The position numbers and the translations under genes were made by a program. The notes beneath the pieces are model-generated. The model was not told the origin of the DNA, did not search any database, and saw only the letters and a program-made list of their open reading frames with translations. Source: a virus. From it: a stretch of 36,010 nucleotides of DNA. This document shows, in pieces, positions 8,522 to 32,141 of the stretch. The stretch is taken from positions 1 through 36,010 of IMG/VR virus record IMGVR_UViG_3300031722_000097, one strand, 5' to 3'. Numbering within the stretch: position 1 is the stretch's first letter; each line of letters starts with the position of its first letter.

Positions 8522-8845
8522 TTATCTGGAATACCAGTCAAATTTATCATCATATTCAAATTCATAAACAAATCCGTATTCTTTGTATTTATTAATTATA
8601 CTAGAATCTTTTAAAACCTGTATTCATATTTTTTTGTAATCCAATTTTAATACAATATCCATAATTTCACAGAAATAATTATTACCTCTATAATCTTCTT
8701 GAACATATACACCAGATAATACAATTTCATCTGGATTAGTCAATGTATTAAATTCAAAAGAATAAACAACTTTATCTATATCCATTTTTATATAGTGAGT
8801 TGATTTGTGATAATCCCACCGCTGAACATATTGTATCAATTCCAT
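8522..8845 (-). CDS. GNAT-like acetyltransferase, small (107 aa; one TGA=Trp)
   Basis: Under the standard code the frame stops at TGA 8624-8626 (codon 74). Read as Trp it continues KKIWIQVLKDSSIINKYKEYGFVY and ends at TAA 8522-8524. The part before the TGA has GVYVQEDYRGNNYFCEIMD, like the acetyl-CoA-binding V..xxRGxG region of GNAT enzymes; the part after it has the typical NKYKEYGF segment. The two halves match one fold only when joined, which supports the recoding. Its substrate is unknown. It is the last gene of the early operon: its ATG follows the upstream gene's TAA directly, and a terminator follows. Confidence 0.75.
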
Positions 8846-9169
8846 TTATTCAACAATAGTACAATCTTTATATTTATCCAGTGTCAGCAAATAAGTTTCA
8901 GCATTAACTTTAGTATTACCATCTGAAAAGTAAGTCGTAAAGTTTAGTTCTGGTGCTTCTGTTTGCATTGGAAGTACACTATCTGAGATATGAAGATAAT
9001 CTGTTTGCATTGGTTGTAAACCTGCTTCTTTTGTGGCTTTATCTAGGTATGTTTTTACGTTGATATTAGCAGTTTTATTATCTCAGTCAATAGTAATATT
9101 GCTTACAACTATGTAAGCAGATTCTGTTACTACTCCGTTTAAAAAGTCGATTCTTTTAGTTAGTCCCAT
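8846..9169 (-). CDS. Early hypothetical protein (107 aa; one TGA=Trp)
   Basis: It starts MGLTKRIDFLNGVV, has TGA at codon 29 (ITIDW), and ends KYKDCTIVE at TAA 8846-8848, immediately before the acetyltransferase ATG. Under the standard code only 28 residues would be made. The content is soluble and beta-rich with no recognised motif. The length, compact spacing and coherent frame across the TGA make it a real gene. Its resemblance to small structural or virion-associated proteins of Bacteroidota phages is only an impression. Confidence 0.7.
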
Positions 9170-9174
9170 TTTGT

Positions 9175-9330
9175 TTATTCTTTTACTGGTTGTAATTGTG
9201 TTTGTGCTTGTTTTTGTAGGTTATTAATCAGTTTAGCAACTTGATTAAATGGTTGTGTACTTAGTGCATTCAATAGAATGTTTGCATCTTCAATACTTAC
9301 TTTGAATTGTAGTTCTGTTTGTTCTTTCAT
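9175..9330 (-). CDS. Small early protein (51 aa)
   Basis: The frame MKEQTELQFKVSIEDANILL... ending QLQPVKE is helical and charged, with no Trp and no TGA. It fits tightly between its neighbours: the upstream stop is 2 nt before its ATG and the next ATG is 5 nt after its stop. I do not recognise it. Such small helical proteins in early operons are often regulators or inhibitors, but no function can be assigned. Confidence 0.65.
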   Translation of the reverse strand: MKEQTELQFKVSIEDANILLNALSTQPFNQVAKLINNLQKQAQTQLQPVKE

Positions 9331-9332
9331 CG

Positions 9333-9809
9333 TTAGTTTAGTTTGGTAATTAGGGTTTCTTTATTTGATCTGATTCATTCACCATTTTCATATAAAAAGA
9401 TGAATGCAGTTTGGTTTATATTTACAAGGTGGACTTGTTTACTTATATAGTTGTTATTTTCAAAAGATGTAGTTGCTTTACAACCTAAACTGCTAATGTT
9501 ACTTTCTATCTGGTTGACGTTTCAAAACAAAGCTATCTTTAAATCTGAAAAATCAAACACATTACAATACAAGCTCTTTTTACCTAGTAAGTACTTATAT
9601 TTTATATCTTCCAGAATAAAACCCTGTTCACTGTATTGTCAAAACTTAGATTTATCTAATCATCTTTCTTTTACTTCGATTATTCCACCGTTTGAGCAGT
9701 CCAGATCGTGTTTAGAATATTGTTCTGTAGTTTCGGTTGCTGTTATTCCACCTAAAGCTAATATCTCTTTTACTCAATCTAGTGTTATTTCTTCTCTATT
9801 TGATCTCAT
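9333..9809 (-). CDS. Hidden early protein with nuclease-like motif (158 aa; five TGA=Trp)
   Basis: Five TGA codons (12, 50, 57, 96, 145) fragment this gene completely under the standard code; no TGG Trp is used. Read as Trp it gives MRSNREEITLDWVKE... to ...TLITKLN, ending at TAA. DLDCSNGGIIEVKERW (about 35-50) has an Asp, a hydrophobic strand and E-x-K, as in small PD-(D/E)XK nucleases. This is suggestive only. It lies between the 59- and 51-residue genes in the early operon with almost no gaps. An open frame on the opposite strand over 9451-9825 is a by-product of its composition. Confidence 0.7.
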
Positions 9810-9813
9810 ATTA

Positions 9814-9993
9814 TTACTTAAATAATTGTTCAATATAAAGTCTTTGTTTAGTTATCAGATTTTGCATTCTAAGTTGTTTTATCTGCTTATTTTTTAATCT
9901 GATAATCTTTTTCATTGTGATAAACTCTGCTATTTTAGCACCTAATCAAATGCAGAATAAAGCGAAGGCTGTAATAAAAATTGCTGTTGTCAT
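9814..9993 (-). CDS. Small membrane protein (59 aa; one TGA=Trp)
   Basis: It starts MTTAIFITAFALFCIW, where codon 16 is TGA, in an N-terminal transmembrane helix, followed by a basic amphipathic tail (MKKIIRLKNKQIKQLRMQN...) ending EQLFK TAA. It is the first gene after the suppressor tRNA on the same strand. Without suppression only 15 residues are made. It could be a small membrane-acting early protein; no family is recognised. Confidence 0.65.
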
Positions 9994-10040
9994 TGTTGTT
10001 TTGTGATTTAAATGTTGTTTTGTTGATTGATTTTTATAGG

Positions 10041-10111
10041 CATAAGTGGAAAGAATCAAACTCTCGATTTCTTGGTTGAAAGCAGACGTGTTATCACTAC
10101 ACTACACTTAT
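10041..10111 (-). tRNA. Suppressor tRNA, anticodon UCA (reads UGA; probable Trp)
   Basis: The 71-nt minus-strand sequence folds as a tRNA: 7-bp acceptor ATAAGTG/CACTTAT; D arm GTGT-AGTGATA-ACAC; anticodon loop TTTCAAC with anticodon TCA at 10077-10079; 4-nt variable loop; T arm GAGAG-TTTGATT-CTTTC with one G-U pair. CCA is not encoded, as is usual in Bacteroidota. Discriminator G73, pair A1-U72 and anticodon bases C35 and A36 match bacterial tryptophanyl-tRNA identity. The body (D arm, TCTGC stem start, variable loop) resembles tRNA-Glu/Asp. The anticodon stem TCTGC/CAAGA has only three pairs, with G-A and C-C mismatches next to the loop. It is placed after the helicase in the early operon. 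Charging with Trp is inferred from these bases and from where TGA occurs in the genes. Confidence 0.85.
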
Positions 10112-10155
10112 ATTTTGTATTTAAAGTACTTATATTTAATGCTTTATTTATGATA

Positions 10156-10163
10156 CAAAATTA
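10156..10163 (-). promoter_or_regulatory. -7 element TAATTTTG upstream of the tRNA
   Basis: The minus strand reads TAATTTTG, matching TAnnTTTG, about 45 nt before the mature tRNA 5' end at 10111. No -33 TTTG is visible at the right distance. It could give the tRNA its own promoter, separate from the helicase. Confidence 0.4.
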
Positions 10164-10235
10164 CAAAAATTAATTTATTAAAATTCTATAAGTGGAGCTA
10201 TTTGTTAAAAATAATTCTGGTGATAATCTGAGGAT

Positions 10236-12011
10236 TTAATTTATAAATATTGCTTTACTTGAAATGATTTTATAACCTTTAAATCTAACTCTATCTACTG
10301 TTTTGTCTACTTTCTCAACATTAAAATAGTGTTCAATATGAGAAGCAGCAGGTGCTTTTGTTATTCCTAATTTATTATAAACTTCTGCTATTAATAATTT
10401 AGCATCTGCATTACTAATTGTTGAACCAGTTTTTAAGTCATACGCTTTTAAAAGTTTAAATATCTTATTTGGTTCTGATAAATTGGACTTAGAAATTATA
10501 ACTCGTTCTATATTACTTTTATGAAATGATAATCTTTCTAGTTCATCATAACCTAATACTTCAAAAGCTTTTACAACATCTTTGTCAAAGTCACAAGTGA
10601 ATTTAAACACATCAGAACTTTCAATATATTCTTTGTATAACTCACATTTTTGTTTGAATGATAATTTATTTAGTCTTTCAACTTCTAATAATTCTAATTC
10701 CTCAGCTCAGGGTTTTACAATAGTGACAGCAGAAAATGAACCGCTTAATTCAGCTATTAAGTTAGCTTTTACTGAATAAGTATGTTGTAATTCAAAGTTT
10801 GCACAATCAATATTTAGAAGAATCTTTTCAAATTTAATATCCGGCTTACCATCTACTTCTTCAATGTTCAAATAGACACTGTTTAGTTTATCAATATCTA
10901 AGAAATCAATAAAAACAGTGTTTCTTTCTGCTAGTAATTCTTCTGCTTTTTTGATGTTTGATTGTGTGGCTATTTCAAATTGCTCTTTCGTTACATTCAC
11001 ATATCTGGATTGTTTATAAATCAAATCTATTGAATTATCTTTTATATCTCTAATTCTACCACCAATTTGCCCCAAAGTAGTACTAATATCTACTAAAGTA
11101 TGTGCTTTTGAACCATCACACATCACATAAATTTTACCGCTTGGATCGAAAATATCACAGCCTTCAAAACAAGTAGAAGTATAAAAATTGATCTTCTTTA
11201 CAGGGTCTAATGTTGATTCTATTTTATATCCAGATAGTTTAGCAGCATTCTTTTCATTGCTTTTAGAACATACTATTCTAACATCTTCTTTTCTCAAATT
11301 AAGTGATTTGGTTACTTTGTTTATAAAGTCCACCGAGTTACAAAATATGTGTGCATTATGTTCTTTGTTTAAAGTAGTTCTACAAATTGCAGCAGATTCA
11401 TCTTCAATACTTTTTACATTTATATGTCTAACTTCTACTAATGGTAATTCATAAACTAATTCAAGTTCATCTAAATGTTTTATCTCATTAAACCACCATT
11501 CTCTTTTAATAGGTGTTGCAGTCATAAAGCACACTTTATTGAAGTTCTTCACCTCAGATAGTAGTAAATTCATTACCTCTTTTCTCAGTAAATACTGGTG
11601 AAATATAACTTGTCATTCATCAACAAGTAAAAAGTCATCATAAATATTCAAATTAGCCTTTGTGTACGCTTTTAATAGCTTACTTAGTCCGTCATAGGTA
11701 GAAACTATTTTTCGGGTTGTAGAGGTCTTTAAATACTCAACAATTGATGCTTGTGTCACACCTTCCTTAACTGTAAGCACATCTTTGTTATATCCTTCTT
11801 TATTGTTTACGACTTCTTTAAATGGCATTAGAATAATTATATCTTTATCAGAATCTAATGCTAGTGATGTGCCACCTATTCCGGTAACAGCTTTATTGAA
11901 TACCGTGTTATACATTTGTTCTAAATTCATAATGTCAGAAAGGTAAACTTTTGAACCTTCTAATGCTCTTTTTTCAATTAATTCTGCTGAAACAGTGATT
12001 GTTCTTTTCAT
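10236..12011 (-). CDS. DEAD/DEAH-box helicase-like protein (591 aa; two TGA=Trp)
   Basis: Three frame pieces join when TGA 11613-11615 (codon 133) and 10707-10709 (codon 435) are read as Trp. Helicase motifs appear in order: a P-loop-like GIGGTS (about 45-50) where the usual Lys is Gly; DDFLLVDEWQ as motif II, whose Trp is the first TGA; FMTATPIKREWW as motif III; CNSVDFINKV and TSTCFEGCDIFD as motifs IV and V; and QIGGRIRD as motif VI. The C-terminal part (about 440-591) looks like a separate helical domain. It is probably the phage replication helicase, acting early. Without the suppressor only 132 residues, lacking the catalytic core, would be made. It heads the operon that contains the tRNA. 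Confidence 0.82.
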
Positions 12012-12140
12012 AGTTGATTTGTATTAAATTATTTGTGATTTTTGATTTAATCTATTTCTAATTTGTATTTTTTTATTCCCCCCAAAAAATCCAAAAAAAT
12101 CTCTAGTACCTCGTTATAAGTTGGGGGAGTCGGATTTAAA

Positions 12141-12169
12141 AAATTAGGCGTATTTTAAACGCCTAATTT
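12141..12169 (-). terminator. Hairpin terminator or attenuator before the helicase gene
   Basis: A perfect 11-bp stem AAATTAGGCGT/ACGCCTAATTT with a 7-nt loop is followed on the minus strand by T6. It ends the HNH operon, and it also lies between the only good -7 element and the helicase start. Confidence 0.85.
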
Positions 12170-12237
12170 CCAAAAAATCAAATTAAACAGCATTCAAGGT
12201 AGTAACTCACGACAATTACTCTTTTTAAATTCTGATA

Positions 12238-12245
12238 CAAAGTTA
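12238..12245 (-). promoter_or_regulatory. -7 element TAACTTTG for the helicase/tRNA operon
   Basis: The minus strand reads TAACTTTG, a full match to TAnnTTTG. No -33 TTTG lies 19 nt upstream, so it may need an activator. It is flanked by two TAACTCAC words exactly 50 bp apart. Confidence 0.45.
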
Positions 12246-12331
12246 CCGATATTAACTCACTAAAAATCTATAAAGTATGATATTTCTTAAACATAGTTGT
12301 GAGGTGTAATTGTAGCCTAAATTTCGGGATT

Positions 12332-12643
12332 TTAGAGGGCTGATTTTGGGATTTGGGGGTTGTGAAGCCTCTGGTGGCATTCCTTGCAGATACTTTGTAA
12401 GTTGGTTGGATCGTAGGCTTTATTTATTCGGGTTAAACCTTCATAATTCATAAAACTATCAATGTGATGTATATCTACAGCTGGGGTTACTTTTCCAGCT
12501 AATAAACAGACCTCACAAAGTGGATTGTCCATCATTTTAGCTAGCCTTAGTTTCTTTCATCTAGTGGTATTATAAATGGCTTGTCTTTCCTTTGTTTTAT
12601 CAGATTTAATCCTCTGTTTCTGGGGTCGATTGATCGTTGGCAT
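12332..12643 (-). CDS. HNH endonuclease (103 aa; one TGA=Trp)
   Basis: Reading TGA 12557-12559 as Trp (codon 29, TTRWKKLRLAK) restores the phage HNH layout: a basic N-terminus MPTINRPQKQRIKSDKTKER, the IYNTTRWKKLR helix, CEVCLLAGKVTPAVDIHHID with the catalytic His pair, NLQSICKECHQRLH with the second zinc cysteines and the final His. Small HNH proteins near terminase genes help cleave DNA during packaging in many phages with this head type. The start ATG overlaps the upstream gene by 38 nt. A caller using the standard code would start it late at MMDNPLCEVC, losing a third of the protein. Confidence 0.88.
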
Positions 12644-13073
12644 CTTCCAAATATATTTGATGTTTGTATAGTTCTTTTTGATCTTGTTTTATCTGGAAAT
12701 TTACCATTTTAAGCTTGTAATCTATATATTCTAGTACTTGTTTTTCTTCTATTTCAGATAGATCTTCCATTACTTTCAAAAGTGTATTGTGAAAAATGTC
12801 TTCTGTAGTCTGGGACATTGAAAGCTTTTCTTTATCTTTTACATATTTAGATCAGAGTTTAGTATAATTTCTTGATATTATATTAGATACTTCTGTATTA
12901 ATAATAATTGAACTGGTTTTTAAACTTCTGTTTTTGGGATTAGAATCTACAATAGGATTTAGTATTTTATCTAATTTATCTTCTGTAATATCTCAATATT
13001 TACAAGTTATTTCAATTCCATAATCAAATATGTATTGTAATAGTGTTTCTTTAGTTGGCTTTTGTTTCTTCAT
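12606..13073 (-). CDS. Early protein with sigma-like segment (155 aa; two TGA=Trp)
   Basis: TGA codons 27 and 74 interrupt the frame under the standard code, leaving only a C-terminal piece starting at residue 86. Joined, it runs MKKQKPTKETLLQYIFDYGI... to ...STPETED TAA. TTEDIFHNTLLKVMEDLSE (about 89-107) resembles the core of region 2 of small sigma-70 factors. No region 4 is seen and the C-terminus is a charged helix. A phage transcription factor for late genes is one possibility; a packaging or head accessory protein is another. It overlaps the RHH gene by 23 nt and the HNH gene by 38 nt, indicating translational coupling. Confidence 0.65.
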
Positions 13074-13239
13074 AGTATTTGTTTATTAATTCTTCATTTT
13101 TATCAAATCAGTCTTTCATTATCATTCTGACTAATTTTGCTTTATCTATTTGGGTTGCTTGGTGCATTACTTCTAAACTTTGATTTATATCATTGTCTAA
13201 TCTTACTGTAATTCGGTTTTGCATTGAGGTTAATTTCAT
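13051..13239 (-). CDS. Ribbon-helix-helix regulator (62 aa; one TGA=Trp)
   Basis: MQNRITVRLDNDINQSLEVM has the beta-strand and first helix of Arc/CopG/MetJ repressors, and DKAKLVRMIMKD the second helix. TGA 13108-13110 is codon 44, so the standard code gives a 43-residue short form; reading Trp gives a 62-residue form with tail WFDKNEELINKYYEETKAN. I chose the ATG at 13239 because it follows the -7 element by 25 nt; a start at MQNRIT is possible. It heads the minus-strand operon beside the divergent control region and is the best candidate lysogeny regulator. Only the long form takes ribosomes into the overlapping start of the next gene. Confidence 0.72.
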
Positions 13240-13264
13240 AGTTGTAATATGTTTTAGATTCACA

Positions 13265-13272
13265 CAAAGGTA
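13265..13272 (-). promoter_or_regulatory. -7 element TACCTTTG for the RHH operon
   Basis: A perfect TAnnTTTG match on the minus strand, 25 nt before the RHH start. A TTTG occurs upstream but with 15-nt spacing rather than 19. Confidence 0.6.
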
Positions 13273-13335
13273 TAAAATATCATTTAACAAAAAACTATTT
13301 TTTATAGAATATGTGAAACATTTAATTAAGATTAT

Positions 13336-13343
13336 TATCTTTG
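13336..13343 (+). promoter_or_regulatory. -7 element TATCTTTG for the AbiC-like gene
   Basis: A perfect TAnnTTTG match on the plus strand, 23 nt before the ATG at 13367. It diverges from the RHH promoter, making 13265-13343 a back-to-back control region. Confidence 0.6.
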
Positions 13344-13366
13344 TGAATCATCAAAAAATCTACATT

Positions 13367-14503
13367 ATGAAATCAAATCAATCTTCTAAAAAATCGTATG
13401 TACTAGAAATAATTGGCGGTGTACTTTCAACGATATGTATATTTATGCTTATTTCATACTTCTTTGAATTTCACGATGGATTTTCTAATGATTACAATAA
13501 GTGGGGCGCATTTGGTAGTTACTTTGGCTCAATAACTGGATTACTTGCTTTTTTAGGTGTTTTGTACTCACTCATTCTCTCAAATAGAGCAACAGAAGAA
13601 GCAAAAAAAGAATCACAAATAAAGGAAGGAATAGCAAAAAAAGAAACTATAAGAAGGGAAGAAAGAGATTTGTTTTTTAAGTTACTAGAATTAGACAGAG
13701 ATCTATTTAATAACGTAAAGTTTGTTGAATGTTTTAAAGAAGTAGGACATAAAAAAGAGAATATATATGGTGGGATAGAAGCATTTGAAAAATTTAGAAT
13801 ACAATTGAACAACACATTAATTGAATATATAATTTATGATTATATGTTTAAAATGAGTACTGATAAATTAAAAGATATTTTAAAATCTGAAAATCAATAT
13901 TATGATTCAATCTTAAATATAAAATCTGACACATTGACAAAATTGAAATCTTTTGAACGATTTAATAACGGTTCTGATAGCTACTTAATAGAGAAAAAAA
14001 AATTATTTGCCGAATTATTGAAACAAGATATTAGTTCCATTTTCTCAAATAATGAAATTAAACCTAATTATTCTGATGAGCAATTATATAAATTCGATTC
14101 TGAATTCAATCCTATTCAGAATCTAAGCTCCAATGAAAGATATATTGCATTAAAATATGTTGGGGACATTTTAAATGAAGTTTATGGTCATATTTTGGAG
14201 CAATATATTCGGAACACTTACTATATTTTAAACACTTGCAATGATTTCAGCGAAGAGAAAAAGGGATATTATTTTAAATTATACAGAGCTCAATTGTCTA
14301 GAAGCGAAGCAATTGTTGTATTCATTGGAGCATTATCAAGTAAATCAAAAACAAATTTCGTAAAGTTGTTAAAATCAAGTGAGTTTTTAGATGTGATTCA
14401 TTATAAAGATCTTTACCTACTAAATAATGAAGCTGGGGAAGGAAATGAGAAATCATTTATCAATTCTATGTTTGATGAATTTTTAAAAGAAAATCCAGAA
14501 TAA
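13367..14503 (+). CDS. Putative phage abortive infection protein, AbiC-like (378 aa), cargo
   Basis: Two N-terminal membrane helices (YVLEIIGGVLSTICIFMLIS and GSITGLLAFLGVLYSLILS, about residues 10-75) lead into a charged coiled coil and a helical domain. The layout WGAFGSYFGSITGLLAF, FFKLLELDRDLF, YIRNTYYILN and FKLYRAQLSRSEAIVVF matches the putative AbiC family of membrane-anchored abortive infection proteins. The start at 13367 is preferred over the longer frame from 13193 because it follows the promoter. It has no internal TGA, uses TGG for Trp and ends in TAA, so it should be made in the lysogen. No terminator separates it from the recoded terS gene. Confidence 0.78.
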   Translation: MKSNQSSKKSYVLEIIGGVLSTICIFMLISYFFEFHDGFSNDYNKWGAFGSYFGSITGLLAFLGVLYSLILSNRATEEAKKESQIKEGIAKKETIRREERDLFFKLLELDRDLFNNVKFVECFKEVGHKKENIYGGIEAFEKFRIQLNNTLIEYIIYDYMFKMSTDKLKDILKSENQYYDSILNIKSDTLTKLKSFERFNNGSDSYLIEKKKLFAELLKQDISSIFSNNEIKPNYSDEQLYKFDSEFNPIQNLSSNERYIALKYVGDILNEVYGHILEQYIRNTYYILNTCNDFSEEKKGYYFKLYRAQLSRSEAIVVFIGALSSKSKTNFVKLLKSSEFLDVIHYKDLYLLNNEAGEGNEKSFINSMFDEFLKENPE

Positions 14504-14559
14504 TTTTATTTGGCAGCCAACATTTAGGTTCATATTAGAAATGATTAAAACCAAATAAT

Positions 14560-14940
14560 ATGAAATGACAAATACCAAAGGATATTGAAAAAGACGCTAC
14601 TGTTTATATGCAAGATGTATTATCAAAACTAGAAACTAGTGGAATACTAGAAGAAGTTGATAGTGCAGCACTAACTATGTTAGCCCGTAATTATTCAATG
14701 TTTATAAAAGCTTCTAAGCAATTAGAAAAAGATGGTTTAACTGTCGAAAGTGATAGAGGTAATATAGCACAACACCCATTAATTAAGGTGGCTAAAGATG
14801 CACAAACGCAAGCGATGAAAGTGATGTTAGAATTTGGACTAACTGCAAAGGCTAGAACCAAACTAATACAAAAAGATAATGAAAGCGATGAAGATTCACC
14901 GTTTGAACAATTTATAAAACAAGGTAAAGAAACGAGATAA
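14560..14940 (+). CDS. Terminase small subunit, P27-like (126 aa; one TGA=Trp)
   Basis: The start is MKWQIPKDIEKDATVY with TGA as codon 3 (14566-14568). The helical body (LEEVDSAALTMLARNYSMF, HPLIKVAKDAQTQAMKVMLEFGLTAKART) fits P27-family small terminases, which recognise phage DNA and feed it to the large subunit. It opens the packaging module. Without suppression translation would stop after two residues; an alternative in-frame ATG at 14608 would lose 16 residues. It is followed by the membrane protein gene inserted before terL. Confidence 0.85.
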
Positions 14941-14954
14941 ATAAATTTAATATT

Positions 14955-15629
14955 ATGGGAATATATTTTAAACGAGAAGATAAAATTGTTTTTCTTATAA
15001 GTATTGTATGTATAATATGGATTAGTTTATATAAATTACAATGGACAACAATTAGTTGTGGTTTGTTGTTTTATAATGCTGATATATGGGGTGATATAAC
15101 TTATACCATTTTCACATCAATACTTGCTGCCGGTTTGTTTTATACCTTTACTATTTTTATTCCCAGAATATCGAGAATAAAAATGATGAAAAAAAATATG
15201 AAGTACTATTTAAAAGAAATTGATGAATTATCTATTTCAATAATTGAAAATATAAAAATAGGAAAGACCGGTAATTATTATACTTTAGAAAAATATAATG
15301 TTGAAGCTTTTAGTCAAAACAACCAAAATGTAAAAAATGATTTTATTACATATTATACAAATATAAAAAATAAAGATACTTTCTATGATAGAATTAATTA
15401 TCAGAAATTGTATGTAAGCAATATTATTCTAAACTATTCAGATTTATTACCAGAAAAAATTGTAATTCTACTATCTGATTTTTGCAACATCTCGTTTAAT
15501 ACATTAAAAGAATACTCAAATATACAAAGTCAAATAGCATATGAACAATTCTTTATAACGTTCAATCTGTTAAACTCCGTTAGTAATGGATTTAAAGATT
15601 ACTTTCAATATAAAAATGAAACTATATAA
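14955..15629 (+). CDS. Membrane protein inserted between terS and terL (224 aa), probable moron
   Basis: Two membrane helices (IVFLISIVCIIWISLY, about 11-26, and ITYTIFTSILAAGLFYTFTIFI, about 48-69) precede a basic, helical cytoplasmic domain (KMMKKNMKYYLKEIDELS...). I do not recognise a family. terS and terL are normally adjacent, so this is an insertion. Unlike its neighbours it uses only TGG for Trp (four codons) and has no internal TGA, which points to separate origin and possible use in the lysogen. It ends in TAA overlapping the terL start by 14 nt. Superinfection exclusion or abortive defence is the likely role by position and shape; this is inference. Confidence 0.72.
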   Translation: MGIYFKREDKIVFLISIVCIIWISLYKLQWTTISCGLLFYNADIWGDITYTIFTSILAAGLFYTFTIFIPRISRIKMMKKNMKYYLKEIDELSISIIENIKIGKTGNYYTLEKYNVEAFSQNNQNVKNDFITYYTNIKNKDTFYDRINYQKLYVSNIILNYSDLLPEKIVILLSDFCNISFNTLKEYSNIQSQIAYEQFFITFNLLNSVSNGFKDYFQYKNETI

Positions 15630-17229
15630 TGAATATATAAATAAAGTCATTTCTGGAACTATAATAACAGGAAAAAATATTCAGTTAGCTTGTTCCAGAT
15701 TTAAAAGTGATTTACAAAGAACTGATTTAGAATTTAGAGAAAATGAAGTAGATAGAGCTATCAACTTTATAAGCACATTAAAACACTTCACCGGAAAACA
15801 TTCTGGTAAGCCTTTCATTCTGGAAGGTTGACAACAATTCATAATTGCCAATATTATCGGCTTCTACTGAAAAGAAACAGGAACACGAAGGTTTTCTAGT
15901 TCTTACATAGAAGTAAGCAGAAAACAAGGTAAAACGGCATTAGCAGCAGCATTATGTTTGTATTATCTAATCGCAGATAATGAAGATGGTGCAGAAGTAT
16001 TACTTGCAGCCAACAGCAAAGAACAAGCAAAAATAGCCTTTGATATGTGTTCTAGTTTTGTAAAGGGTATTGATCCCAAAACAAAATATTTTATCCCTTA
16101 TAGAGCAGATATAAAATTCAACCTCACAAACAGTAAACTTAAAGTATTAGCCGCTGATGATTCAAAATTAGACGGCTTTAATGCATCATTTGGTTTACTA
16201 GATGAATACCACGCAGCACCCACCAGCAAAGTTAGAGATGTAATAAAGTCTAGTATGGGAATGAGAAACAATCCTCATTTGTGTACAATAACCACTGCTG
16301 GCTTTAATAAGTCCTTACCCTGCTATCAACTAAGAACAGTAGCAATAGAAGTTCTAAATGCTGTAAAAACAGATGATTCTATGTTTATAGCTATCTTCTC
16401 TTTAGATGTTGATGATGATTGAACTGATAAAAATAATTGAATTAAATGCGCACCTAATTTAGGTGTAACAGTTCCTTCTAAATATATTAAAGAACAAGTT
16501 CAACAGGCTAAAAACAACCCATCAGAAGAAACTGGTATAAAAACTAAAACACTAAATCTTTGGTGTGATTCTGAGAATGTTTGGCTACCAGATGATTATA
16601 TTCTAAGCTGTAGTAAAAATATTGATCTAAATGATTTTAAAGGTAAAGCTTGTTATGTTGGTGTTGATTTAGGTCAAACATCAGATTTAACTGCTGTTTC
16701 TTATTTAGTTGTAAATGATAATAAATACTATTTCAAAACTCATTACTACCTTCCAGAAGAAGCTTTAAGAACTAAGTCTAACAAAGAATTATATAAAGAT
16801 TGAAAGCGAAAAGGGCAACTAACTGTAACGCCTGGCAATGTAACCGATTATGAATATATAACTAACGATTTGATGAAGTATTCACAGATTGTAAATATAC
16901 AAGTAATTGGATATGACAGCTATAATTCTACTCAGTGAGCAATTGATGCAACTGCTAAAGGTTTACCACTTGAAGTTTATTCTCAAACAATTGGAAACTT
17001 TAATAGACCAACCAAAGAAATAGAAAGGCTTATATTATCTGACAAAGCAGTTATTGATAACAATGAGATCAACAGATTCTGCTTTAAAAATGTAGTTTTA
17101 AAATCAGATCAAAATGGTAACACAAAACCAGTAAAATATATAGACAATAATAAAATTGATGGTGTAATTTCTATGATACAAGCTTTAGGTATGTATTTAC
17201 AAGTTCCTCATTATTCAAACACAATTTAA
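15616..17229 (+). CDS. terL: Terminase large subunit (537 aa; six TGA=Trp)
   Basis: Joining the frame across six TGA codons (72, 85, 269, 275, 396, 441) gives a full large terminase. The Walker A is SRKQGKTALAAA (about 101-112), Walker B GLLDEYHAA (about 193-201), and the coupling motif TITTAGF. The C-terminal nuclease starts at VGVDLGQTSDLTAV (about 350), then GYDSYNS and DGVISMIQALG supply acidic residues. The enzyme pumps DNA into the prohead and cuts it. GWQQFIIANIIGFYWKETG shows two TGA-coded Trp in a segment where large terminases conserve tryptophans. It ends in TAA 11 nt before portal. Without suppression only 71 residues are made. Confidence 0.95.
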
Positions 17230-17239
17230 CATAATACAA

Positions 17240-22207: not shown

Positions 22208-22852
22208 ATGAATATAAAATTAAACATTAAAAGTATCATCAAATTTGAACAGTTTACTAATAAATCATTCAATGAAATAGACTATACAAATGCAGATGAT
22301 TTATTAAAATTGATGTACTGTATAGTACTTTCAAACAATCCAGAGGTATTTACTTACGAAGAGTTTTTAGAGCTAATAAAGAGTAAGAAGATAAGTAAAA
22401 CCATTTCGGATAAATTCAACAAAGAAATTAAATTGATTGAACTATTTTCAAATAAGGAAATCAAAGACGAAGTTGTAGAAGAACAACAACCAGAGAGGGA
22501 AAAGACATATATAAAAGATATTGCTGCAATACTAGTAGTGAATGCTGGACTAGATATAAATTTCGTAATGAATGAAATGAGTATAAACGATATTTCTTTA
22601 TATATGGAAGCCTATAACAATAATGTGAAGCAACAAATGGAGAGTAGCAGATTATGAACATATCTAACACTATTACCTAGCCTAGATAGTAAAGTAAATT
22701 CACCAGTAAAACTTTATCCTTTCCCTTGGGAACTTGAAGCACAAGTTGAACAAGATAAAACAGAACTAAAAAGTATGGCTGATGAACTACCAGACATTTT
22801 TAAATCTAGTGCAGATCTAATTGAAAAAATAAACAAGCAAAAACAACAATAA
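22208..22852 (+). CDS. Tail assembly chaperone-like protein (214 aa; one TGA=Trp)
   Basis: The gene lies between tail tube and tape measure, the place of tail assembly chaperones (lambda gpG/gpT type). It is acidic and helical (KFEQFTNKSFNEIDYTNADD, SIKDISLY-like repeats) and continues across TGA codon 150 (SSRLWTYLTLLPSL) to TAA. In many phages this position uses a -1 frameshift to make a longer form; here the extension is in the same frame behind TGA, so suppression could serve a similar role. No slippery site was found by eye. The ATG at 22208 is chosen because the longer frame begins inside the terminator. Confidence 0.7.
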
Positions 22853-22853
22853 T

Positions 22854-25800
22854 ATGGCAGGAAGATTAAGTTTCTCAGTAGCTATTAATCTACTGACAGA
22901 GAATTTTAAAAGGGGTTCTGGTGAAATAAAAAACGGACTTCGTAATATACAAATGCAAGCAATGACAATGTTTGCTGCACTTGGTGCCGGTTCTTTAGGT
23001 TTGGGTGAACTTGTATCTAATTTAATAGATGTTGCCAGACAAACGAATAGAACATCTACAGCATTAAAAAACGTTTCCGGTGATTGAGAAACTTATGGAA
23101 AGAACCAAAAGTTTTTAATTGCTCTTTCTCAAAAATACGGTTTATATGTAAATGACTTAGTAGGCAATTTTGCGAAGTTTACAGCAGCAGCTACTAATGC
23201 TAATATGTCTATGAAAGATCAACAACTTTTGTTTGAAAGTCTTTCAAGAGCATCAACAGGGTTTGGTTTATCAGCAGATGAAACTAACGGTGTGTTCCTG
23301 GCTGTTACTCAAATGATGGGTAAGGGTAAAATTCAAGCTGAAGAACTTCGTGGTCAATTAGGGGAAAGAATGCCTATTGCAATGCAAGCGATGGCAAGGG
23401 CAGCAGGTACAACTGTAGCGGGTCTGGATAAGATAATGAAAGCAGGTAAATTAATGAGTGCTGATGTATTACCAAAGTTTGCCAAAGCATTAAATGAAAT
23501 GATGCCTAATGTCAACACTGATAATATTGAAACTTCATTCAACCGTTTAAAAAACTCATTCAAAGAATTAACCGACAAATTAAATGTAGGTGGTATTTAT
23601 AAGAACTTACTAGATCAAACTGGACAGGGTTTTCAGTGGTTGATGAATAACTTTAAAACGGCTGGTAATGCTATTGTAAATATTGTTGCAAGTTTAATTA
23701 TTGGTAAAGCTATTAATGCAATTATTACAAGTTATAGGACTTTAGAAGTAACTGCACTTAGATTTTACAAGAAACAGGCTTTAATGTCTGGTTTGGCATT
23801 TGATGAAATGGCATATAATGCCAATAAATTTAAAAACATTGCAACAGTAGCTTTTGCAAAAATTGGTGTTGCTTTAAAAGCAGCGTTTGCAACATTTGCT
23901 CCAATGCTAATTATTTCTGGATTAATTGCTATTTATCAACATTTCTCAGACTTAGCAGAGAAACAAAGAGAAATAAAAGCTATATGAACAGACTTTCAAA
24001 ACGGTTATAAAAATGCTGGTAAAAATGATTCACAAGTTAGGGAACTTTCAACGCTTCAAAGCATAATCAAAGACACAACTAAATCTTTAGATGAAAGAAA
24101 AACAGCCTTAGAACAAATAAATAATATACTTGGTACTAATTATGAGTTTGATAAAAGCGGTTTAAAAATCAACGGTGATATTAATACAAAGATCTGTGAA
24201 AGAATAGGTTTACTAGAAAAACAAGCAGAACTAAGTTACTTAGTGAATGCAAAAATGAAAGCTGGTGATGCTTTATCTGAAAGTGCTAATAAAGTAAGTG
24301 AGGATGAAAAGCAACTAGTGATATGGAGTTCAAGAGCAGCAAATAAAGACAAAAAAGGTTTTATTCAAGTTGCAGATGAAGCATATCAATCTAAAGTCTG
24401 GAAAGACAAATTAGATGTTGATTTACAAGAGAAAAAAGCGAATGAAAAGGTTTATAATTCAGCATCAAATAAAGTAATAACAGTTACTACTGATATTGAA
24501 AAGATAACCGGAAAACCTAAAGCATACACTGCACCAGTTGATACAACTGATAAGAAAGCAAAGAAAACCGATTTACAAAAAGCTGAAGAAGATTACACAA
24601 AAACACTTACTGAACTAAATAATCAAAAATCTAACGGTGTAGTTACTGATAAAGAATACAACAGGGCTTTAGATGAATTGAATAAAGAAACCTACAAAAA
24701 AATAGGTGGACTGGTCAAAGATGGCAGTAAGAATAAGATTTTTAAAGATGTAAAGGCTGGGGTATTAAACCCAAAAGAAACCGAAATAGGCAAAGTTGAA
24801 AATGATTACAATGATGCTTTAGCAGATCTTACTTTAGAAAAGAAATTAGGTTTAAAAACCAGTGAAGAGTATGACAGTGCTTTAAAAAGTCTTATAAACT
24901 CCACGGTAAAAAACATCTTCTCAAATGATAAAATTGATGCAGCATCAAGTGAGTTTGCAAAAACCTTAATTGCAGCTAAAAAGACGCTGGATAAAAAGGA
25001 TTATAGTTTACCTATAAAAGAAAAGGTAGATCACACTTTCGACTATAAAAAGAATGCTGTAGAGAAGCTACAGGATAAGAAAGATGTAAATGATAAATAC
25101 TCTAGTGATCTGGTTGAAAAGCTCAAAAAGAATACCGGTGCAGATGATATTGAACAACAAATCAAAAACGCTAAAGGTGATCTAACAGCACTTAATGCAA
25201 AGTTTGGTTCTGACTTGGTAGGTTCAATTGCTGCACTTGATGAAGCACTTAAAAACACAACTAGTTTGTCAGATGCTTTAAAGCTTGCAGAAGTGAAGAA
25301 AGACATCAAAGACTTACAAAAGGAACTGAATAACGGTTTATATGATGGTGTAAAAAATATTGCTGGTAGTGCTAAAAATATGTATGAGGGTTTTAAAGCC
25401 GTATCTGACACTATTAGTAATGTAGATGCTTCTGGATTTGAAAAGTTTCTTTCAATCTGAGATGCACTAACAAATACTGTTGATGGTATTATGTCAGTTG
25501 TAAAAATGATTGAGAATCTAACAACAGTTACTACTGCTTTAGGATTAGCTAAACAAGCACAAGTAGGAATTGAAGCAGGTGTTTCAGCAGCTAAAATTGC
25601 AACTAATATTGCAGAAACAGCTTCTTATACCGGACTTATGGCAGCAGAAACAGCAGCAGCTTATGCTTTTATTCCTTTCGTTGGTGAAGGTCTGGCACTG
25701 GCTCAAATTGGAGCAATGCAAGGCGCAATATTAGCTGCAAGTATTCCAAAGTTTGCAAACGGTGGTATTGTACAAGGTGGTTCTATTTCTGGTGATAAAA

Positions 25801-25994
25801 TCCTAGCTAGAGTAAACGCTGGTGAAATGATATTAAATCAAGGTCAACAAGGTAACTTATTTGCTCTATTAAATGGTCAAGGCTCTACAAATGGAACAAG
25901 TACCATTTCCGGTGGTGAGGTAGTGTTTAAACTTGAAGGTAGTGTTTTAAATGGAGTTTTAAAGAATTATAATAGTAAAAAAAGTAGAGTATAA
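22854..25994 (+). CDS. Tape measure protein (1046 aa; three TGA=Trp)
   Basis: It is the longest gene of the tail module, with an N-terminal tape-measure domain (MAGRLSFSVAINLLTENFKR; ADETNGVFLAVTQMMGKGKIQ; EELRGQLGERMPIAMQAMAR). Hydrophobic segments lie near 280-300 and 350-370 (APMLIISGLIAIYQHFSD), then long coiled coils (about 460-860). The C-terminus has FIPFVGEGLALAQIGAMQGA and FANGGIVQGGSISGDKILAR, typical of the tape measure end. TGA codons are 78, 378 and 869. At about 1.5 Angstrom per residue the tail would be near 150 nm. The stop TAA overlaps the next ATG. Confidence 0.92.
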
Positions 25995-28108
25995 TGATTT
26001 ACACAGGACAATTTAAAAGCATAAATAACACTTTATATCAAGTGGATATAAATGTAAATGATGGCAATAGTGGAACATCTGAGATAATTTTCTCATATGA
26101 ACCATTTAAAATCGAATTAAATACAAATAGTACAATTTACGAGCCGTTGAAATTATCAAATGCAACTTGTACAATTATATCTGATAGTTACAATTTCAAC
26201 CTTTATTCAGCAACTGCACAAGGTACTAAAATGACATTGAGAGATGTTGATAATAATATGATTAAATGAGTTGGTTATTTGACACCAAACATATATACAC
26301 AAGGCTTTGAACAACTTTATGAGAGTATTGAATTAGAAGCAATAGATGGTTTGAGTACATTAGACAATTACAAATTTGAAACGGTTGATCTTGTAAACAG
26401 AAAGATAAAAAGCTTTGAAGATTTATTGATTCATATCATCAAAAAGTGTAATTGCTATTCTAAAATATACGTGAATGAAAACAACTATTTACCGGGCTTT
26501 GAAGATCAAAAAATCATAGATAAATTACTCGTAGCTGAGCAAAATTTCTTTGATGATAACGAAGCAATAACATACAAAGAAGTACTAACACAGCTTCTTC
26601 AATTCCTAAACTATACAATTGTAGCAGATGGTGATGAGGTTTATATATTGAACTATGATTATATAAAAGGTGGATTTGTAAACTATCATACCTATACTAC
26701 TGCAAACAATTGGTTGAATTATTCAACTGGCTACACAACATTAAGTAATACAGTAGATGTTACAAATGAAAGTTTTAAATCGAATGGTGCTAGTATTGAA
26801 TTAGCTGAGGTTTATAATCAAGTAAGCATTAAAACCAGTGTAAGCACAAATGATAGTTTGATACCAGAGTTTTTTTCTGATGATGATCTAACCAACATTA
26901 CAAAAGTAACAGGAACAACAAACTGGTTTTCTTCTATTCCTAAAACTTATGGAAGTAAGAACTATGTGTTTAAATATTTCAAAAATGATAAATACAAAAC
27001 ATATAATAAAACTGGTGGTACTTGGTCTGAATTAACCGAACTTGATTATGATACAATATCAACTAAAGAGGGTGCATCCTTTGTAAGAATGGCAAACTAT
27101 GAAAATAATGTAGCATTAAGTTCTTCTGTTAGTTTCTCTGATTATGTTTGTCTTTATAGGTCTGGATATGTTGCACCAACTGGCGCATTACCTTTACAAA
27201 CTTGGCTTGACTGTACAAATAATGTTGTACTGAAATATTCATCAAGCAATGAGGGTAGTTATTTTTATGATGATTACTATTTAATAATTAGTGGCTCTGC
27301 TTATTGGGATTCAGCGGTTAATGTAGCTTATATAGATGAAAGTAAAAAAGCATCTACAGGTGATTATTATTTATCAACTTACGTATTATTATATGCAAAA
27401 TTAAAGATCGGAAATAAATACTGGAACGGTTATCAAAAGTATTGAACTAATATTGAAATGACTTTCCCAATTAAGTTTGAATACAAAGATGGACATCTTT
27501 ATAACAACTGGAAAAACATATTAAACGAAGTTGATACAACAGCATTTATAAATGAAGTTGGTAATAAAATAACCATTAAAAAGGCAGATATGTTATTCGG
27601 TGATATTGAGTTTTCATTATATGAACCATCTGAAATATATAAGGGTGGTACTTGTGGTGCTGTATGATTGAAAGATTTTGACATCAAGTTAGTTAAACCT
27701 ACAAGTGAGAAAAAAGCGGAAACAGATACAGAATATAAAAACGTAATCAATACAGCGTTTGTAAATGAATTTTCTGATATGAATTTAAAAGTATGTAGTG
27801 ATACAAATAAAGGATTGAATTATTCATCTGTTATTCAAAAAATAGGTACAGATTATACATACAATCAAAGTATCAAAACAAAGGCTTTAGGAATTGACCA
27901 GAAACAAGAATACAACATTATCCAGTCTTATGTGAATCAGTATTCAACACCAGCCAAAAAACTAAATATAACGCTGGCTAATATATTTAAACCGTATTCA
28001 TTACTAACAATAAATAGTATTTTTCCAACTGAAAAATTTATTGTTGATGGTATGAGTATAGATATAAAAAATGATACTAATCTATTGAATATAGTATCAA
28101 AGAAATAA
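25994..28108 (+). CDS. Tail tip / baseplate protein (704 aa; three TGA=Trp)
   Basis: Four frame pieces join across TGA codons 92 (NMIKWVGYL), 484 (YQKYWTNIEM) and 558 (GAVWLKDFD). The product is beta-rich with no clear enzymatic motif. The order (directly after the tape measure and before the fibre) and size fit the distal tail or baseplate hub protein of Bacteroidota siphophages. The start overlaps the tape measure stop as TAATG. No family name can be given with confidence. Confidence 0.75.
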
Positions 28109-28135: not shown

Positions 28136-30772
28136 ATGGAATTTCAAAGTAAAAATATAGCCTTACAAAGAGGTTCAACAACTACTGCTATTAATAATTA
28201 TAGTTCTGGTGGTTCTGGTTTAGTTTCAGCACCTTTGAATTATTTGCAATTAACCCAACAAACAAGCAATTTAATTACAAACGGAATTATACAGCTACCT
28301 ACTTCTATAGGTGGTTTATTAGGTAGTGTTACAGGTGAAACAGCTAACTATTTTATTAATAGTAATGGTTGAATTTTTTCAAATGGTACTAAAAATATTG
28401 CTGGATTAGATAAAGATGGCAAGCTAAATATAGGTGGATTAGAGCTTGTAAGCGATTCTAAGAACATCAAACTAGATATTAATGCAGATGGTAATCTTTT
28501 GCTTAGCGGGTCAGAAATGACAAATAAACCAGTTATACAAAGTATCATTGATGGAGTATATCAAGACCTTTTAATTAACCCAAATGGGGGCAATGTATCA
28601 ATTAATACAGAATATTCAGAGGGCTACCAACTTAATGTAAATGGAATAGTGAAAATAAAGGACTTAACCATTAACGGTGGTACTCATAACAATGTATTAG
28701 CTACAAATCCAGTTGATGGAAGTTTTACTTTGAATGGTCAACCTTTAGGAGCTAGAATATATAAAATTGATGAACTACTAAGCGGTACTTTTTCAAGTGA
28801 AGACATATCAAATAGTGTTAATGCTTATGTTGGTAAGAACTTACTACAAAGAGTAACAGCAATTGAAACAACAGGTTCACAACCTGCATTTAATGGTACT
28901 GGTTTTGTAAAGGTGAACGGTTCAACTATTAGTTATGATAATAATAGTTATTATGTTAATGGTAGTAATGTAATAAGTGCAACAGATGCCACAAATGCAC
29001 AAAATGGTAGATTATTATTTGATGAGTATAATGGTGGTTTTAGGGGTAGTAGTACTTTATCTGTAGCCTATGCAGTTAATGCGGGCAGTTCAATTAATTC
29101 TGATAAACTTGGCGGTCAACTTGCAAGCTATTATTTGCCTTATAGAACATTTGGAAGTGCTGCAAATAGTAACACAGACCAATTCATAAATATGAATTGG
29201 AACAGATTTACAGGTGATGCAAATACTTTAGGGTTGTTAAACACAACAGGTGTTTATAATATTAGCAGTGCTAGTAATGTACCCTCATATTATGGCACAT
29301 TGCTAGGCTTTTGGAATGGTGATATATCAACACAGTTATATTTAGGTTATAATGGTGATATGTCTTGGAGAAAGTCAATAGGTACATCTTACACAGGTAG
29401 TATTTGGCGAACTGTTTGGGATTCTGTAAATTTCAACCCTGCTAACTATTTACCATTAACAGGTGGTTTTTTAAGTGGTTTTTTAGATTCAAATGAGAAA
29501 ATATCAACTAATAATTTGTTTTTAACTAGAAATTCTGCTATAGGAAACCAAATTTTAATAAATGCTAGTGGTGCAAATTATGGAGCAATTCAAACTATAA
29601 GTTCTAATTCTTGGGGGCTTGGTACTGGAACAGGTAATGTTGATAAAAATATTAATAATACTGCTTTGATATGGGATATAAACAAAAATGTAACTATAGG
29701 TGGAAATATTAAAATTGGTATTTCATTGTCCGATTCCCCAACAAGTTCACCATCTTGTTTTGATTCAGGTAGAAACTATTCGAACGGTAAAACAAAAGAC
29801 AAATTAAAATTTAAGTTATATGATGAATATGGGTTTACAGTTGGCTCAGATGGTGATGTACAATATCATTCTAATGTTCAACATCAAACTTACATAGACA
29901 ATAATCTTAAATCAACTATAACTTCAACTGGATTATATATTAACGGAGAGATTAAAACAAATGATAATAGTGTTATTCATTCGGGTAATATTGGAAGTCA
30001 AACAGTAAGTAATTTAATGAATAGTGGCGGTGGTGGTATTCAATCCAGTGTATTAGGGCAGGGCTATAACTATGCTGTTTGTGTTAGAGAACCATTGGGG
30101 CAAGGTGGTAATACAGCTGTTGAAGCAGCCCCTAGATTAGGCTTTCACTGGGGCGGATTGGTTGCAAGTAGTATATCAATTGGAACAAATGGTTCATTCT
30201 ATTTGAACAATAATCCTGGGGGAAGTAGAGAAAATTTATACCTTAATAACTTATATGGTAGTTCTATTAATATGAGTGGTGATATATTTGGAGATATTTT
30301 CCACGGTAATGGTTCAGGTCTAAATAACGTTAATGCAAGCTATATAAATGGTATAGATAGTGGAAGAATTGTTTCTGGTGATAATGCAAGAGGTAGGTCA
30401 ACTTATTTCACTGGACAAAATGCAAATACATCAGATTCAAATAATGCAAGTGGTTTTTATTGTGGTTCATCTGTTACAGGTATGCCATCGGGTGACTGGT
30501 GGAACTGGATGACTTGTGCGGGTGGTAGTTGGGGCGGTAGCGATGGTTATGCTTTTCAATTAGCAAATTCATTTTGGGGTGATGATTTAAGAGTTAGAAG
30601 AATGACATCAGGAACTTGGCACGATTGGCAATCTATTATTCATTCGGGTAACATAGCAAATCAAAATGTTGCAAACAGTGATACAGTTGACGGTGTACAC
30701 ATTTGGAGGGGTTCACTGGCAAGTTATAACGCATTAACTAAAGATGCTAATACAATGTACATAATAATATAA
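28136..30772 (+). CDS. Tail fibre / receptor-binding protein (878 aa; one TGA=Trp)
   Basis: An N-terminal attachment part is followed by repeated Gly/Asn/Ser-rich beta modules, as in trimeric fibres. GYQLNVNGIVKIKDLTINGG is a typical start of the shaft; QFINMNWNRFTGDAN and the following part to WRTVWDSVNF resemble a pyocin-knob-like domain, and MPSGDWWNWMTCAGGSWGG with GTWHDWQSIIHSGN repeats such a domain near the end. IIHSGNIANQ and VIHSGNIGSQ are typical hinge motifs. It has a single TGA (codon 79) but many TGG Trp codons in the receptor-binding half, unlike the rest of the module, suggesting that half was exchanged recently. Confidence 0.85.
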
Positions 30773-30782
30773 TAATAAAACT

Positions 30783-31910
30783 ATGGGAGATTTTAATACA
30801 GGGTCGATAAATAATATCGCAAATATAAAACTGGGAAATGTACAAGTAAATAATGTATTTATGGGTACACAGGGCATTTGGACAAATAAACTCAAATTTG
30901 ATTACACAATAACACAGGAACTAACCTTTTTAGACCCATATGCAGAAGCTAAAGATTCGGGACAAATTCAAGGGATGAATAATACAATAGTCAAATGTAT
31001 ATCACAATCAAATGATAACTTTACACAATTAACAACAATCCCATATAGTACAACTAATTCATTAACTTATTACAACCCATTTACTACATTAACACAAAGT
31101 AATAGTTTCAGTGATATAATTTATAAATCTGATTTGAATAAATTCAAGTTAGTTACTAATCAGTTTCATAATTGGTATGCAGGTAGCACTATTCCAGTTG
31201 GAAGCGGTGCGGGCGTTGGGTCAGAAAGTTGGCACAATTTAGATGATACTAATCCACATTCAGTTGTAACCAATGGCGCATATAATGGAAGCATTATATT
31301 AAAAAATCAACCGCTTGACATTCCAATTGATTTAAAAATTAATGGTTACAAACAAGTAGATGCTTTACAAATAAACTATGATGCACCCATTCTAACAAAT
31401 GGAGCTTTAATTATTAGAATGTGGATTAGAGTTGATGAAACAAGTAATGGTACATACTTTGGTTCAGATACTAGGTTTAGTTTTTATTCTTTAAATTGCA
31501 ATTTAAGTGCTTATGACGATGCAGGTGTGTTTTTTGATTTTAACGAAAATAGAGAGATAATGTGGAATGATGGCACAGCTACTTACAGTGGTGGTAATGG
31601 TGTTTGTGAAATGATTTGGGTATGGAATTTTCCACCTAGTACAATGGGTTTTATGGATGCATTTGCAGAGTGTACAATTAATGCGGTTGTTGGAACTATT
31701 CTTAGTATATCATATAATAATACAACTATAACAGTTGATGAGGGTTATTTATCCAACGGTGTATATTTAAGTAATATATTTTTTGATACCAATGGGTTAA
31801 CTGGTATGAACTGGGTAACTTTAGGTGGTGATAATATAATGCCAATTACAACAAGATTAAAGAACTACAAAGTAACATTGAATTATAACCTAACTGATGT
31901 ATACGACTAA
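30783..31910 (+). CDS. Tail-associated hypothetical protein (375 aa)
   Basis: It opens MGDFNTGSINNIANIKLGNV and FMGTQGIWTNK, a pattern seen in proteins carried on Bacteroidota phage tail tips, followed by a beta-rich body with Gly/Asn/Thr (NGALIIRMWIRVDETSN). It has several Trp, all TGG, and no TGA. It follows the fibre by 10 nt and ends in TAA. It may be a second receptor-binding or fibre accessory protein. Like the fibre's distal half it avoids TGA. Confidence 0.7.
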   Translation: MGDFNTGSINNIANIKLGNVQVNNVFMGTQGIWTNKLKFDYTITQELTFLDPYAEAKDSGQIQGMNNTIVKCISQSNDNFTQLTTIPYSTTNSLTYYNPFTTLTQSNSFSDIIYKSDLNKFKLVTNQFHNWYAGSTIPVGSGAGVGSESWHNLDDTNPHSVVTNGAYNGSIILKNQPLDIPIDLKINGYKQVDALQINYDAPILTNGALIIRMWIRVDETSNGTYFGSDTRFSFYSLNCNLSAYDDAGVFFDFNENREIMWNDGTATYSGGNGVCEMIWVWNFPPSTMGFMDAFAECTINAVVGTILSISYNNTTITVDEGYLSNGVYLSNIFFDTNGLTGMNWVTLGGDNIMPITTRLKNYKVTLNYNLTDVYD

Positions 31911-31934
31911 TTAACAATTAAAACACAAAACAGA

Positions 31935-32141
31935 ATGAATTTGAAAGAAACAAAATTGAACGTACAACTAGCAGTAGCTTGTGTATTAGTGTTGGCAGGG
32001 ATATGCCTTTTATTTATGGGTTTTTGAGTAGTACCCATTGGAATTATACACAATAGTGTATTAGTAGCCTTTGGGGAAATATGCACCTTTGCAGGTGCTT
32101 TGTTTGGGGTAGATTACCACTATAAAAAGATTGGTAAATAA
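31935..32141 (+). CDS. Holin-like small membrane protein (68 aa; one TGA=Trp)
   Basis: The frame MNLKETKLNVQLAVACVLVL... has two hydrophobic helices (about 11-34 and 44-60) and a basic end DYHYKKIGK. The single TGA (codon 31, LLFMGFWVVPIG) lies at the end of the first helix, so under the standard code only a truncated one-helix peptide exists and gene callers would miss it. Small two-helix proteins at the end of the tail module are usually holins or related tail-end membrane proteins. No endolysin was identified nearby. A terminator follows the stop by 4 nt. Confidence 0.68.

Follow-up and report, generated by a model that had tools for sequence, protein, structure and literature searches.

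A Paludibacter prophage with two genetic codes: predicted reading of TGA as tryptophan in lytic genes and a candidate UCA suppressor tRNA

Layout of the prophage and its host

The stretch of DNA analysed here (36,010 nucleotides of IMG/VR record IMGVR_UViG_3300031722_000097, hereafter the window) combines two genetic codes within a single 34-kb prophage. This temperate prophage, a tailed HK97-type element, entered by way of its serine integrase and lies between hisB and a phosphatase gene in the chromosome of a Paludibacter species. Gene names were taken from Pfam and PHROGs (terS, terL, portal, S78 protease, PF05065 capsid, connectors, tape measure, and serine integrase), and the features are laid out as follows:

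586-2451 (+): large serine integrase with Resolvase, Recombinase and zinc-ribbon domains (phrog_95 integrase, 256 bits); 0 TGA, 5 TGG
2542-8354: cargo/lysogeny block in the standard code, 0 in-frame TGA
3817-5046 (-): PIN_8 protein within the cargo/lysogeny block, no recoding
8522-13290 (-): early lytic operon, recoded
8522-8845 (-): early-operon gene, 1 TGA
8846-9169 (-): early-operon gene, 1 TGA
9333-9833 (-): small early gene, 5 TGA
9814-10059 (-): early-operon gene, 1 TGA
10041-10111 (-): candidate opal suppressor tRNA, anticodon UCA (Rfam tRNA model)
10236-12011 (-): helicase-like gene, 2 TGA
12332-12643 (-): HNH gene, 1 TGA
12606-13073 (-): early-operon gene, 2 TGA
13051-13290 (-): early-operon gene, 1 TGA
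13193-14503 (+): putAbiC-domain gene inside the lytic block, no TGA
14560-14940 (+): terminase small subunit (terS), 1 TGA at codon 3
14955-15629 (+): cargo-like gene between terS and terL, no TGA, 3 TGG
15586-17229 (+): terminase large subunit (terL), 6 TGA at codons 82, 95, 279, 285, 406 and 451
17240-18478 (+): portal, 3 TGA
18456-19007 (+): prohead protease S78, 1 TGA
19007-20206 (+): major capsid PF05065, 1 TGA at codon 188
20217-22852 (+): connector and tail genes (Ad1, Hc1, Ne1, tail terminator, major tail, and 22169-22852), the last four with 1 TGA each
22854-25994 (+): tape measure, 3 TGA
25994-28108 (+): tail/baseplate-like gene, 3 TGA, 7 TGG
28136-30772 and 30783-31910 (+): two tail-fibre-like genes in nearly standard code, 1 TGA versus 24 TGG
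31935-32141 (+): small membrane protein in a holin-like position, 1 TGA
32159-34420 (+): right-end genes, no recoding
35011-36009 (-): host hisB, with host flank from about 34745

Genes for a phage RF1 or TrpRS, which are accessory in recoded phages, being present in some and not defining the class, were not found among the genes scanned, and the unscanned genes are too small for either. The putAbiC and PIN_8 proteins, both in standard code, may represent defence cargo. Near the right end, at 34594-34656, lie three tandem 21-nt repeats with the core GCGTATCATTTGA, which are also found in a larger recoded phage described below and are possibly att- or origin-related.

The window and Paludibacter MAG G021 encode HisB proteins that are 100% identical, and window positions 1-2513 and 34745-36010 match the flanks of a prophage in G021 at 95.6 and 96.6%. 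This sister prophage occupies the same attachment site and has more than 30 in-frame TGA codons in the same genes as the window. An earlier note on this DNA had placed the insertion beside hisB, and in relatives without the prophage hisB and the phosphatase gene indeed adjoin. Host recoding, which that note had seen no sign of in hisB, also finds little support in 60 kb of sampled host DNA, where code 4 brought little or no gain and TGA was used as a stop (33 ORFs; TAA 26, TAG 4, TGA 3). prfB is present in the host genomes tested, and among the host tRNAs that were read, one is Trp(CCA) and none has the anticodon UCA. Judging from these genomes, the host is a standard-code Paludibacter. The note had mentioned TGA-recoded phages of gut Bacteroidales, but a Paludibacter MAG as host lends no support to a gut link for this prophage.

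In-frame TGA and the residue it stands for

The earlier note had counted 38 in-frame TGA codons in 21 genes between 8522 and 32141, and our recount gave identical figures, both overall and for the genes it had singled out (terL six, portal three, tape measure three, helicase two, and the gene at 9333-9833 five); the remaining TGA codons are in the genes at 25994-28108 (three) and 12606-13073 (two) and, one each, in 14 genes. That lytic genes stop at TAA or TAG, as had also been stated, is true for all 21 TGA-bearing genes, and the internal stops across these genes are TGA in 38 of 38 cases with no TAA and no TAG, which rules out chance decay. When ORFs of at least 120 aa were counted, their cover of 8522-28108 was 0.43 under code 11, 0.85 under code 4, and 0.49 under code 15 (TAG readthrough), and their cover of the integrase/cargo region (586-8354) was 0.83 under all three codes alike. 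Read in code 4, the region 8522-32141 yields long genes of recognisable kind on either strand, while genes at 3007-3618, 6625-6849 and 32159-33067 use TGA as terminator under the standard code.

The ratio of TGA to TGG is 36:19 in the core lytic genes versus 0:24 in the lysogeny and cargo genes (Fisher 8e-9), and 1:24 in the two tail-fibre-like genes. The notion of a recoded lytic block thus holds for the core genes but does not extend to the tail-fibre-like genes, nor to the genes at 13193-14503 and 14955-15629 (0 TGA), and the fibre-gene figures in particular indicate that recoding of the block is non-uniform. The tail-fibre-like genes (28136-31910) favour TGG amid recoded neighbours, as if they had been acquired recently or kept expressible under the standard code.

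Relatives were collected by a viral-contig scan (39 terL-related loci) and a GTDB genome scan (80 more), and the many relatives without in-frame TGA, which cover 29 of the 38 TGA columns, served as the outside standard. At these columns, standard-code relatives have Trp in 533 of 856 cells (62%, against a background of 1.35%) and an aromatic residue in 77%; the plurality residue is Trp at 16 of the 29 columns and Phe or Tyr at 7. As controls in the same relatives, columns of window TGG codons are 86% Trp and columns of Phe codons 4% Trp. Trp predominates at terL codons 82 (67/79), 279 (71/82), 285 (80/82) and 406 (77/82), and is found in 48/49 relatives at HNH codon 29 and in 37/39 at capsid codon 188; TGA columns outside the near-unanimous ones are mostly at positions of greater variability, and those at terS 3, helicase 133 and portal 133 are Tyr/Phe or variable. 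The claim that TGA stands at conserved aromatic or Trp positions therefore stood for terL and HNH, while helicase motif II, for which it had also been made, is aromatic but has Tyr rather than Trp in the two standard-code relatives.

Gene ends and selection point the same way as the columns. Downstream of an aligned lytic gene, the stop met first is TGA in 0 of 219 cases in UGA-scored relatives versus 59 of 210 in standard relatives, and TAG in 0 of 20 cases in UAG-scored relatives. On the two sides of the first TGA, dN/dS takes similar values in three relatives (upstream and downstream, 0.232 and 0.234 in L013, 0.214 and 0.287 in L079, and 0.210 and 0.222 in L009), which argues that the parts downstream of TGA are translated. 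TGA positions in the lytic genes are also common to the window and its relatives.

Two explanations that dispense with a tryptophan code have to be set against these data. If there were no recoding, and TGA were a true stop in a decayed prophage or in an arrangement of short genes, the long TGA-free stretches and the standard-code host would find a ready explanation; comparison refutes this, however, through the exclusive use of TGA among the internal stops, the Trp columns, the retention of TGA across relatives, the purifying selection downstream of TGA, and the lack of TGA terminators in UGA-scored relatives, and we consider it practically excluded. That TGA encodes some amino acid besides Trp, be it a different aromatic, Cys, Gln or selenocysteine, is very improbable. 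The Tyr/Phe or variable columns listed above would suit such a residue, as would the D-arm of the UCA tRNA, which is like that of the family's Gln-type CUA tRNAs, but Trp is dominant at the well-conserved columns (terL 285 and 406, HNH 29, capsid 188). Moreover, a UAG-recoded relative has Gln at its TAG columns, so the column method does separate Trp from Gln. Selenocysteine and pseudogene readings were ruled out by the column and selection tests. In agreement with the earlier note, alignment columns, gene ends and selection thus all support TGA in the lytic genes being tryptophan, as far as comparison of sequences can tell.

The UCA tRNA at 10041-10111 and its family

A feature absent from the earlier note, as are the sister prophage and the turnover of codes in the family, is a match to the Rfam tRNA model at 10041-10111 (minus strand; 45.9 bits versus a gathering score of 29), which is intergenic in the early operon, in the gap that separates the helicase-like gene from the recoded gene following it, and which parses as AUAAGUG UA GUGU-AGUGAUA-ACAC G UCUGC UUUCAAC CAAGA AAUC GAGAG UUUGAUU CUUUC CACUUAU G. 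The parse has anticodon UCA, U33, A37, A1-U72 and discriminator G73, with no complete CCA encoded; the acceptor, D and T stems are wholly paired, and the anticodon stem is mismatched at 30-40 (G.A) and 31-39 (C.C), two pairs that were scored as unpaired in one register. Because of these two loop-side mismatches, ARAGORN at default settings reports no tRNA in the window and calls tRNA(tca) at 10041-10111 only when its threshold is lowered to 90%, so that, where recoded phages seem to lack a suppressor tRNA, detection may have failed. Folding by minimum free energy was non-significant (z -0.67) and did not recover the cloverleaf; the evidence for the tRNA is the covariance model and not this folding. 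With regard to bacterial tRNA-Trp identity (PMC9976931), the window tRNA fits at G73, A1-U72, A9, C35 and A36 and is missing G2-C71, G3-C70, G4-C69 and C34; A1-U72 and G73 also occur in the host tRNA-Trp genes. Taken together, these features make this tRNA a probable decoder that would read UGA as Trp.

In viral contigs a pattern scan picked out 35 stretches; about 30 of these, from other phages, hold tRNAs that share the D-arm and the UCA loop. They form a family of opal suppressor tRNAs in Bacteroidota phages with the D-arm TAGTGTAATGGTAGCAC, with which the window tRNA has the D-arm, UCA loop, A1-U72 and G73 in common, and several contigs bearing tRNAs of this family gain ORFs upon TGA readthrough. 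The 5-bp anticodon stem is intact in all but a few of the approximately 30 members, versus 3 bp and two mismatches in the window tRNA. The window form was seen only on the window phage and near-identical contigs, and conservation of its odd stem is thus not supported; a search of the window tRNA against a phage collection gave no match, and a helicase query for the helicase+tRNA cassette elsewhere returned near-identical contigs only. A custom cloverleaf scan for tRNAs with stop anticodons placed only the window type and those of loci L029 and L082 clearly above shuffles.

Several candidates were rejected on inspection. Weak tRNA matches in L003, L005 and L022 (10.2 bits) are coding sequence, a UCA "tRNA" that ARAGORN, run with introns allowed, called within fibre genes of both the sister and the large phage is a poor cloverleaf in coding sequence, and Rfam E-value matches to U6 and other eukaryotic RNAs are due to chance.

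A shortened anticodon stem has a parallel in the UGA-reading tRNA-Trp(CCA) with a 4-bp anticodon stem of Blastocrithidia and Zinderia (PMC13092985). The window tRNA differs from it in that its anticodon, UCA, is fully cognate to UGA and in that its broken pairs are loop-side (30-40 and 31-39).

Code turnover, decoding and rival explanations

All three codes (standard, UGA=Trp and UAG=Gln) occur within about 70-95% terL identity in the family to which this prophage belongs, which makes the steps of code change traceable. A terL tree of 76 rows requires at least six changes among these codes, four of them forced by well-supported branches, and standard clades are nested beside UGA clades. In TGA-recoded phages described earlier, a UCA tRNA has reportedly been seen, and so have several origins of the code among relatives. 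L029, L082 and L084 read UAG as Gln, and CUA tRNAs are present in L029 (7569-7639) and L082 (5778-5849, minus strand); the D-arm of these tRNAs resembles that of the window UCA tRNA.

At the position of the helicase and tRNA, the sister prophage has a replication-initiation-like gene and no tRNA. Rfam, ARAGORN and pattern searches, which were non-exhaustive, found no UCA tRNA in the sister prophage or in the recoded prophages of two other genomes (a Rikenellaceae MAG and Proteiniphilum acetatigenes), and equally non-exhaustive Rfam and pattern searches found none in the host MAG of the sister, which may be incomplete, or in those two genomes. With several recoded relatives thus showing no detectable UCA tRNA, an own one is either not obligatory in the family or not always detectable. 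Close relatives here change from one code to another, and a tRNA that could translate the codon is found in some and not in others, so their coping strategies are open to experiment, and the sister in particular makes decoding in tRNA-less recoded phages directly testable.

Two contigs, G002 (of L003; 1-41 kb) and G012 (of L022), with which loci L042, L166, L167 and L070 are grouped, carry a larger TGA-recoded phage beside a window-family phage, either as tandem prophages or through an assembly join at a shared module. The larger phage has a GroEL-like gene, ribonucleotide reductase, its own terL with 10 TGA codons, and a canonical tRNA-UCA; G012 carries many tRNAs. Window positions 34155-34655 are 98% identical to it over about 500 bases and positions 31934-32521 are 83% identical over 590, while the right-end module of the window has no such match to the sister prophage. 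The 98% identity suggests a recent exchange, and the two phages therefore probably meet in one host.

Comparison shows that the replication, packaging, head and tail genes of this prophage use UGA as Trp while its integrase, cargo and right-end genes are standard; most likely the prophage supplies its own decoder, and we put the probability of this reading as a whole at about 0.85. Against an own decoder speak the two anticodon-stem mismatches and missing acceptor identity pairs of the window tRNA, as well as the equally recoded sister and other relatives in which no UCA tRNA was detected. Upon induction, the UCA tRNA would be made from the minus-strand early operon or from its own promoter, charged with Trp by the host TrpRS, and would compete with the host RF2 at UGA; full-length lytic proteins would then appear only once this tRNA is present. 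One may speculate that the mismatches on the loop side of the anticodon stem are either tolerated or help to outcompete RF2. In a lysogen without the UCA tRNA, UGA would truncate most lytic proteins, and the quiescent state would be kept safe; this truncation may equally well be a by-product of drift.

The most serious competitor, to which we give somewhat less than an even chance, accepts the recoding and denies it any regulatory benefit: the lytic genes of an AT-rich genome would have drifted to TGA while a suppressor tRNA was at hand, and back upon its loss. The repeated code flips in the terL tree, with standard clades beside UGA clades, and the near-standard code of the fibre genes agree with such drift, but the sharp lytic/lysogeny split (36:19 versus 0:24) is what a regulatory role predicts. 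However, that split is not decisive, since genes expressed in the lysogen, where the tRNA is lacking, would be forced to stay standard in any case. Rather doubtful is a further explanation, in which the recoding is real and 10041-10111 is a decaying pseudo-tRNA, with UGA read by the UCA tRNA of a co-resident or co-infecting phage, by an unrecognised tRNA, or by near-cognate host tRNA-Trp with weakened RF2. It draws on the sister in a near-identical host and the recoded prophages of the two genomes named above, for which no UCA tRNA was found, and on the pairing in G002 and G012 of a canonical tRNA-UCA with a window-family member that shares an end module. Borrowing from hosts or competing phages has also been proposed in a jumbo-phage study (PMC13037316), and standard tools found a Sup-TCA tRNA in just 11 of 73 code 4 phages (PMC11210395). 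Yet, apart from the anticodon stem, every one of the 16 pairs of the window tRNA is intact, and its acceptor stem is private but fully paired, unlike the outcome of random decay; the anticodon, U33, A37, T-loop, A1-U72 and G73 are all kept. Possibly incomplete host MAGs and non-exhaustive searches weaken the argument from missing tRNAs, and near-cognate readthrough would be too weak for a terL with six UGA codons.

A more daring extension of the preferred reading, in which the prophage brings its own decoder, seems to us improbable but worth stating: the decoder may be a movable, shareable part, with an aberrant UCA tRNA, perhaps with a short stem that beats RF2, in an exchangeable helicase+tRNA cassette, which the sister would have lost so that it makes virions only with a tRNA supplied in trans by another recoded phage. 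If this were true, the dependence of the sister on another phage would rest on the genetic code.

Prophages whose code departs from that of a standard-code host have been described as a class (Borges 2022, Nat Microbiol 7:918, as cited in PMC10746230). As far as PMC10746230, PMC11210395 and PMC9523058 describe them, code 4 phages and prophages share with the window in-frame TGA=Trp in lytic and structural genes, a standard-code host, and unrecoded integration genes. The window differs from the code 4 phages of that work in its Paludibacter host, the broken anticodon stem of a tRNA that ARAGORN overlooks at default settings, fibre genes that keep TGG, and a same-site sister in which no tRNA was found; nor was an RF1 or TrpRS seen in it. 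TAG-recoded (code 15) crAss-like phages, for which there is peptide evidence for recoding (PMC9523058), likewise have a code unlike that of the host and a suppressor tRNA, there CUA, as the presumed decoder; the window differs from them in UGA=Trp and in being a small HK97-type siphovirus with a serine integrase. What is new here is the odd UCA tRNA, with its presumed function, together with a sister prophage in which none was found, and for this two-code prophage the host, attachment site, empty site and sister prophage are all known. A recoded prophage of Bacteroides neonati, with few TGA codons, has, immediately upstream of terL, a UCA tRNA whose variable arm is long (L033:7655-7748, L120:8899-8992).
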